From: Candidatus Gastranaerophilales bacterium
Lineage (GTDB): Bacteria > Cyanobacteriota > Vampirovibrionia > Gastranaerophilales > Gastranaerophilaceae
DNA length: 64,000 nt
NCBI GenBank assembly: GCA_944325885.1
Contig: CALVBT010000004.1
Coordinates: forward strand, 62,001 to 126,000
Direction of reading: 5' to 3'
Position 1 is the stretch's first letter, and the number at the start of each line of letters is the position of its first letter. The translations under genes were made by a program, and so were the position numbers. Positions 54,415 through 57,326 of the stretch are shown here, piece by piece. Under the pieces are notes generated by a model, which did no database searches, was not told the DNA's origin, and saw only the letters and a program-made list of their open reading frames with translations.

Positions 54415-54536
54415 AATAAATCTCCTTTTATTGTACCAATTCACTCAAGAATCGTAGTCAAAACAAGGAGATTTATCAAGTGTTTAATATAGTCAACTGA
54501 CTCCAAAAATTATTTGACGAAAAGCAATAAGAACTC

Positions 54537-55019
54537 TTACTTAACGCCAAAGAGTCTTTCGTTTGCAAATTCTCTTAACGCTGTAGAGATTTTTTCAGCA
54601 TAAGGTTCAGACGGATTAAATTCTACCTTTTTGACAGGATAATGAGAGACAGCCTTCGGTGAGAACACGCCTTTGAAAACATCTTTAAAAAATCCGAAAA
54701 ATTCTTTGGTAGACATTGTCGGCAGCTGTTCTCTGTTCTTTTTGCTTCTAAACATATTGTCCAGAACAACGCCGACATCAGTGCTTGTCGGATTTTTTCT
54801 GTCTGCAATGCTCAATCTGATTTTGTCGCCTGATTCTTCAGGGAATGTAAAATGAAATCTAACGTCGCCTCTGTCAGCCCTTCTCTGAATGGATTTAAAT
54901 TTTTCAAAATCAGGGTTTGCAACCATTTTTCTTAAAAGCTGTCTTGGATTAACTGTCTTTTGCACTCCTTCAAAATAATCGTTCATCGGAGGCTGTATTG
55001 TTCTTAATGTAACTTTCAT
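54537..55019 (-). CDS. Hypothetical protein, 160 residues
   Basis: An unrecognised soluble protein. GAGGAAAAT precedes the ATG as ribosome site. The middle has a likely beta stretch (GDVRFHFTFPEESGDKIRLSIAD) followed by a disordered, Asn/Arg-rich part and a C-terminal helix (AEKISTALREFANERLFG). No Cys or membrane segment. It stands alone between tpiA and the Zn-ribbon gene, and it is AT-balanced like its neighbours, so it is probably native. The function is unknown. Confidence 0.7.
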   Translation of the reverse strand: MKVTLRTIQPPMNDYFEGVQKTVNPRQLLRKMVANPDFEKFKSIQRRADRGDVRFHFTFPEESGDKIRLSIADRKNPTSTDVGVVLDNMFRSKKNREQLPTMSTKEFFGFFKDVFKGVFSPKAVSHYPVKKVEFNPSEPYAEKISTALREFANERLFGVK

Positions 55020-55768: not shown

Positions 55769-56977
55769 ATGGCACGCGAAAAGTATGAACGTACGAAACC
55801 GCACGTTAACATTGGTACAGTAGGCCACGTTGACCACGGTAAAACTACATTAACAGCAGCAATCACTTCTGTATTGGCAGCAGCTGGTCAAGCTCAAGCT
55901 AAAAAATTCGATGAAATCGATGCTGCTCCTGAAGAAAAAGCAAGAGGTATCACTATCTCTACTGCTCACGTAGAATACGAAACAGAATCTAGACACTACG
56001 CACACGTTGACTGCCCTGGCCACGCTGACTATGTTAAAAACATGATCACAGGTGCTGCTCAAATGGACGGCGGTATTCTCGTTATCGCTGCTACAGATGG
56101 TCCTATGCCTCAAACTAGAGAACACATCCTGTTAGCTAGACAGGTTGGTGTACCTAGATTGGTTGTATTCTTGAACAAATGCGATATGGTTGACGATGAA
56201 GAACTTCTCGAACTCGTTGAAATGGAAACAAGAGAATTGTTGTCTTCTTACGAATTCGATGGCGATAACATCCCTGTTATCAAAGGTTCTGCTCTTAAAG
56301 CTCTCGAAGCTGTTCAAGCTAACCCGAACATCAAAAGAGGCGAAGACAAATGGGTTGACAAAATTTGGGAACTTATGGATGCAGTTGACTCTTACATCCC
56401 AACTCCTGAACGTGACTTAGACAAACCTTTCTTGATGCCGGTTGAAGACGTATTCTCTATCACAGGTCGTGGTACTGTTGCTACAGGCCGTGTTGAAAGA
56501 GGTAAAGTTAAAGTTGGTCAAGAAGTTGAAATCGTTGGTTTCGGCGAAACTAAGAAAACAACTGTTACAGGTGTTGAAATGTTCAGAAAACTGTTAGACG
56601 AAGGTCTTGCAGGTGATAACATCGGTGCATTGCTCCGTGGTATCGATAAAACTGAAATCCAGAGAGGTCAAGTATTGGCTGCTCCTGGTTCTATCACACC
56701 TCACACAAAATTCACAGCTAACGTTTACGTTTTGACAAAAGAAGAAGGCGGACGTCACACTCCTTTCTTCCCTGGTTACAGACCTCAGTTCTACATCAGA
56801 ACTACAGACGTAACTGGTTCTATCAAATTTGACGGCGAAATGGTTATGCCTGGTGACAACGTTGTTATGGACGTTGAATTGATCGCTCCTGTAGCTATCG
56901 AACAAGGTATGAGATTCGCTATCAGAGAAGGCGGACGTACAGTTGGTGCTGGTGTTGTTGACAAAATTATTGCTTAG
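55769..56977 (+). CDS. tuf: Elongation factor Tu
   Basis: A 402-residue GTPase that delivers aminoacyl-tRNA to the ribosome. The start at 55769 ([19 protein letters not shown]) has AAGGAG 10 nt upstream; the longer frame is leader DNA. G1 GHVDHGKT is at residues 18-25, G3 DCPGHADYV and G4 NKCD follow, and domain 2/3 hallmarks ([29 protein letters not shown]) are present. Codons are strongly biased to GCT/GTT/GGT compared with the neighbours, as expected for a highly expressed gene. fusA and rps genes are not adjacent. A terminator follows. Confidence 0.99.
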
Positions 56978-57000
56978 TCACAACAACGCATAAAAAATTA

Positions 57001-57035
57001 AAAACTGCTTCGAATTTTTTCGAGGCAGTTTTTAT
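57001..57035 (+). terminator. Terminator after tuf
   Basis: An AAACTGC ... GCAGTTT stem with a TCGA/TCGA extension, loop of T residues, followed by TTTTT. Confidence 0.88.
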
Positions 57036-57044
57036 TATTTTGTC

Positions 57045-57240
57045 TGAGGCGGCTTCGCTTATATCTACGGAAGTGACCCCATGCACTGTCTTGAAATCAG
57101 ACGTTCACGAAAACTGAACGTTTCCGTTCACAAGGGGCAAGGCCCCGTCTGATTTCGCTGTTGCCTGTGCCGGACTTGTTTAACAAAACGGACTTGCCAA
57201 ATGCACAGGTTCTACAAGTAGTCGGAGTCAGTTGACTATA
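57045..57240 (+). ncRNA. Candidate structured RNA between tuf and recA
   Basis: The region is richer in G+C than other intergenic DNA and contains several nested perfect inverted repeats: GAAATCAGACG/CGTCTGATTTC (57093-57103, 57146-57156); CGTTCA/TGAACG (57102-57120) with an alternative pairing TGAACG/CGTTCA (57115-57130); GGGGC-AAG-GCCCC (57134-57146); CCTGTGC/GCACAGG (57164-57170, 57203-57209). CGGACTTG is directly repeated twice inside the last one. It resembles none of 6S, tmRNA, SRP RNA or RNase P that I can recall. The strand is not certain. Confidence 0.5.
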
Positions 57241-57326
57241 TAAAATATTCACAAACCATTTGTATAAAACGCCAAAATAAGGTAAAATAGCATTATTACA
57301 GGAAAATGCTAAATGGGGAGAAACTA

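Follow-up and report, generated by a model that had tools for sequence, protein, structure and literature searches.

A dispersed, hairpin-forming mobile repeat in the tuf–recA spacer of a Gastranaerophilales bacterium

The spacer between tuf and recA in the analysed window, a stretch of 64,000 nucleotides of Gastranaerophilales DNA, carries a copy of a dispersed, recently mobile repeat family that is found so far in one Gastranaerophilales-like bacterial family only. The repeat is of a known kind, the small non-autonomous mobile repeats, and is uncommon in its zero target duplication, covarying core, hairpin modules and recent burst. It accounts for ~100 intergenic sites in the home genome, plus contig ends in the assemblies of relatives. 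We lean towards the explanation that the element, non-autonomous and gene-less, is moved in trans as folded single-stranded DNA, with an HuH-type enzyme as the best guess for the mobiliser. The original prediction had named a structured RNA, a mobile miniature element and a recA leader as options for this spacer; dispersed copies, precise empty sites and identical units indicate that the second was right.

The tuf gene ends at position 56977. The spacer contains the tuf terminator (56992–57041), a separate feature just upstream of the repeat, followed by a GC-richer block of 206 bp (57041–57246, + strand). The block is a complete copy of the repeat in its long form, as indicated by whole-element BLAST and by its 5' end (TGTCTGAGG) and 3' end (GTTGACTATATAAAAT), both of which match ends fixed at empty sites elsewhere. 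The G+C of the block is 0.48, whereas the spacer on either side of it has 0.27 and the whole window 0.37, in line with the higher G+C noted originally.

All parts of this copy are given on the + strand. The 5'-terminal motif TGTCTGAGGCGGCTTCGCTTATA (57041–57063) is conserved among copies and, as read from the sequence, is partly complementary to the 3' end. The 5' arms of the core hairpin (57075–57087; helices 1–3 of the covariation analysis) begin with GACCCC (57075–57080) and ACT (57085–57087), are interrupted by an optional hairpin module of 71 bp (GTCTTGAAATC...GATTTCGC, 57088–57158), and resume with TGTTG and the apical CCTGTGC (57159–57170), the apical stem showing compensatory variation. 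The apical loop (57171–57196), which is variable between copies, contains the direct repeat CGGACTTG twice, at 57171 and 57189. The 3' arms GCACAGG, CTACAAGT and GGAGTC (57203–57229), assigned by the covariation analysis, lead into the conserved 3' terminus CGGAGTCAGTTGACTATATAAAAT (57223–57246). The inverted repeats and the 8-bp direct repeat noted originally are thus present where they had been placed. The 7-bp pair CCTGTGC/GCACAGG (57164–57170/57203–57209) forms the apical stem, and the arms GACCCC/GGAGTC and ACT..TGTTG/CTACAAGT are weaker. The longest stem, the perfect 11-bp inverted repeat GAAATCAGACG/CGTCTGATTTC (57093–57103/57146–57156), is real, but it is part of the 71-bp add-on module, together with a GGGGC/GCCCC stem, and is missing from most copies. 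A second copy of the family, degenerate or truncated, adjoins tpiA (54482–54562, − strand; covariance model match, 24.5 bits, E 4e-5), with the 3' motif at 54487–54505.

The core hairpin is maintained by compensatory changes. The block had been described as far more structured than a spacer should be; its stems are real and covary, but the stability of its fold exceeds that of dinucleotide-shuffled sequences only moderately, not extremely (z −2.3 for the + strand and −3.2 for the − strand). Folding energy alone is no proof of functional structure, and the proof lies in the compensatory changes across copies, which had been proposed as a check and are seen among 81 distinct copies of the repeat. 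Pairing holds for 95.8% of cells in an alignment of 30 diverse copies and for 93.5% among the 81 distinct copies, where 76 cells have changed on both sides; shuffles give 21.0 such cells and slid controls no more than 31. Alignment A2 was fitted to the structure and leans that way; alignment A1 was not so fitted. In particular, the apical stem occurs as CTGTGC, GGGTGC, TTGTGC, CGGTGC and GGGTAC, each with a matching partner. G-T pairs outnumber A-C by 88 to 31. A single column contributes 42 of the 88, and the assignment to the + strand is therefore only weakly supported. The preservation of the stems among copies indicates that the folded strand matters; it does not by itself imply production of an RNA.

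With the block as query, BLAST returns 62 pieces in the home genome (G000). The first 19 bases of the 3' terminus (CGGAGTCAGTTGACTATAT) match 106 times in this genome with at most three mismatches, compared with one match for the reversed control. Occurrence at many unrelated loci had been named in advance as the mark of a mobile repeat, and dozens of such loci are found in the home genome, where the copies are mixed in orientation to genes and unrelated in gene context. The whole-element search matches 22 of 22 genomes of the same genus and 0 of 17 more distant genomes. Among 192 genomes from the order, 14 match the core covariance model. All 14 belong to the same family, with no match elsewhere in the order, and in a second genus (G186) the model detects at least 20 copies. 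An exact 24-mer of the 3' end is matched mostly in Candidatus Gastranaerophilales contigs. Genome G011 contains about 130–155 copies by the two end motifs, and many of them are identical 177-bp units, indicating recent movement. For an uncultured gut lineage, this offers a burst that is both recent and traceable, by an element whose insertion is precise. Several fresh insertions lie close together in G011 (L153, L154 and L156). A variant subfamily in G000 (L075 and L086), with terminus GTTGACTGGATTGTCTT, forms tandem units of ~129 bp. The repeat family has no match in Rfam, and a phage or plasmid origin was rejected on the lack of a match in phage, plasmid and viral collections. The titles and abstracts returned by a keyword search of the open literature on Gastranaerophilales and Melainabacteria repeats do not describe the family.

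Insertion of the repeat is precise, falls at AT-rich sites that approximate AAWW^WTT, and produces no target-site duplication. Two empty-site comparisons fix the ends exactly as TGTCTGAG...GAAAA, with zero duplication; the 3' end occurs as GAAAA or GAAAT. A copy in G013 sits in another dispersed repeat. In the sister genome G002, paralogs of that repeat without an insertion (six alignments, of which two overlap on one contig stretch) read AAGAAAAAATT^ATTTCTGTC, fixing the insertion point as AATT^ATTT, with no duplication. A copy in G011 (L156) splits a GH108 (phage-type lysin) gene. Plain joining of its flanks restores an ORF of 306 aa, and removal of 1, 2, 3 or 4 bp at the joint breaks it. 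The orthologous empty site at L155 agrees with these ends, and that at L157 agrees within a base or two. When the flanks were searched together in G001, G007 and G015, one empty site was clear and another approximate. Direct repeats flanking 96 copies show no clear excess at any length or offset, including 2–10 bp and shifted boundaries. In the left flank, A is favoured at −4 (77%) and at −3 (56%), followed by A/T at −2 and −1; the flank is loosely conserved, with no fixed target tetranucleotide. With an enzyme in hand, the chemistry of transposition could be tested directly at these exact, duplication-free boundaries. A further dispersed repeat (TTCTTTCTTTTGG...) serves as an insertion target and is seen in the flanks of L271 and at L275, L277, L279, L281, L283 and L290 (G002).

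The orientation of copies is biased with respect to the replication strand in the home genome. With the element masked, 69 of 80 copies in G000 lie on the locally G-rich, presumably leading, strand (p 2e-11), compared with 76 of 137 long ORFs; GC skew here is a proxy for the replication strand. Among the matches listed, neighbouring copies share their orientation in 48 of 67 cases in G000 and 36 of 53 in G011 (each p below 0.01). Local GC skew shows no strand bias in G011 (12 of 24 copies tested), and a replication bias is therefore well supported for G000 only.

A Y1 transposase and a reverse transcriptase were rejected as universal mobilisers because neither was found in key genomes. The Pfam domain Y1_Tnp (PF01797) was not found in G000 or in the copy-rich G011, G007 and G015, and is present in G001, G002, G004, G009 and G013. 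No autonomous parent with the same ends was found among the examined loci with distant or unpaired ends. In G000, a candidate autonomous copy with distant ends (C12:23161) is a truncated copy followed by ordinary genes. The unpaired ends examined in G011, judged by end-motif positions, show no coding element. Identical copies break contigs in incomplete metagenome-assembled genomes, so an autonomous copy could be hidden.

That the mobiliser is specifically a RAYT, and the element an unusually large REP-like sequence, seems to us rather unlikely. RAYTs belong to the HuH enzymes and act on hairpin repeats (PMC6006769), and G013 has a RAYT gene (L166, 1477–2013; NF047646, 143 bits) immediately between two complete copies of the same orientation. 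Like REP/REPIN sequences, the family is also dispersed, mostly intergenic, hairpin-forming and gene-less. However, the RAYT of G013 is accompanied by a palindrome of its own, GTTGGGCAGGTATGCCCAAC, and the segment that holds this palindrome is conserved together with the RAYT in other genomes. At the other RAYT loci retrieved no copy is adjacent, L168 alone having one ~0.7 kb away, and presence of the enzyme does not track copy number: G002 has a Y1 transposase and hardly any copies, whereas none is detected in the four copy-rich genomes above. Unlike REP sequences of 21–65 nt, the family has a 107-nt core in elements of about 130–320 bp, and alignment A1 conserves no GT[AG]G guide at the hairpin foot. 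Improbable, in our judgement, is integration of the folded single strand, or of a circular form, by a tyrosine recombinase, comparable to the action of integron integrase on attC. A shared A/T core would then explain both the AT-rich target and the missing duplication, and the long imperfect hairpin with complementary arms, the tandem copies (L075 and L086) and the strand bias would fit; integron attC sites and CALIN arrays likewise combine long imperfect hairpins with some tandem copies. But the boundaries of the family do not fall at a GTTRRRY core, since GTTGACT is one position off and the insertion end lies ~14 nt beyond, and no coding cassette accompanies the element.

That the repeat is a functional structured RNA or a recA leader, repeated by chance, is very improbable. 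The covariation and the slight + strand excess of G-T would agree with an RNA; the lack of an Rfam match and the mobility seen in precise empty sites and identical copies argue against it. A recA leader is not supported: copies occupy dozens of unrelated loci and face genes in no set direction, and most relatives have nothing like the repeat upstream of recA; L091 has a divergent copy there. Another dispersed palindromic repeat of ~200 bp lies upstream of recA in G015 and is missing from the same place in G001 (L099 compared with L100). Copying through RNA by a reverse transcriptase, in the manner of a group II intron or a SINE, is disfavoured and is given hardly any weight. It would fit the zero duplication, the strand bias and the A-rich 3' end, but RVT_1 has no match in G000, G011, G001, G007 or G013, and, unlike group II intron or retroelement derivatives, the repeat matches no intron domain in Rfam.

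Movement in trans as folded single-stranded DNA by an HuH-type enzyme is the reading that we prefer. Single-stranded exposure on the lagging-strand template would let the + strand of the element fold. An enzyme acting in trans, possibly an HuH-type transposase, would recognise the folded core and the ends, and the single strand of the element would be cut out or copied and then joined into AT-rich single-stranded DNA. Its placement before recA would then be incidental. IS200/IS605 elements use the lagging-strand template (PMC6006769), and elements derived from them resemble the repeat in zero target duplication and folded structure; the strand bias that GC skew indicates in G000 would fit that template. 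Unlike IS200/IS605, the repeat has no conserved left target tetranucleotide, its ends are partly complementary to each other, and the home genome has no detected tnpA. The repeat is short, gene-less, high-copy and dispersed, as MITEs generally are, but differs from them in having no target-site duplication and, among the loci examined, no autonomous parent with the same ends. It resembles ERIC and Correia-type MITEs, which are imperfect palindromes of 100–200 bp, largely intergenic and numbering tens to hundreds of copies (PMC10969869); size, palindromy, copy number and placement are shared. By their descriptions, it differs from them in zero target duplication and in extra hairpin modules at three internal sites.

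The short form (~135 bp) consists of the 5' motif and the core hairpin of ~107 nt, 3' motif included. Optional extra hairpins occur at three internal positions, after CTTGTA, after GCACT and after TACAAG. The second position is occupied in the window copy, where short-form copies read CACT-TGTTGCC. Complementarity between the element ends, as read from the letters, is only partial and involves CTGA/TCAG, GRC/GTC and CTTGT/ACAAG. Interchangeable hairpin modules are unusual, and they show diversification of a short mobile sequence around a constant folded core. ERIC elements can carry internal insertions. Rather doubtfully, the repeat may represent a new class of modular element, moved as a folded single strand, without duplicating its target, by an enzyme outside the known IS200/RAYT group, and gaining or exchanging hairpin cassettes with TCTTGAAATC...GATTYCGC feet at fixed internal sites. 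Tandem arrays of ~90-bp hairpin units related to the modules are present at L162, L163, L164, L202 (5000–5400) and L020; the units have the constant feet TCTTGAAATC...GATTYCGC and variable interiors.
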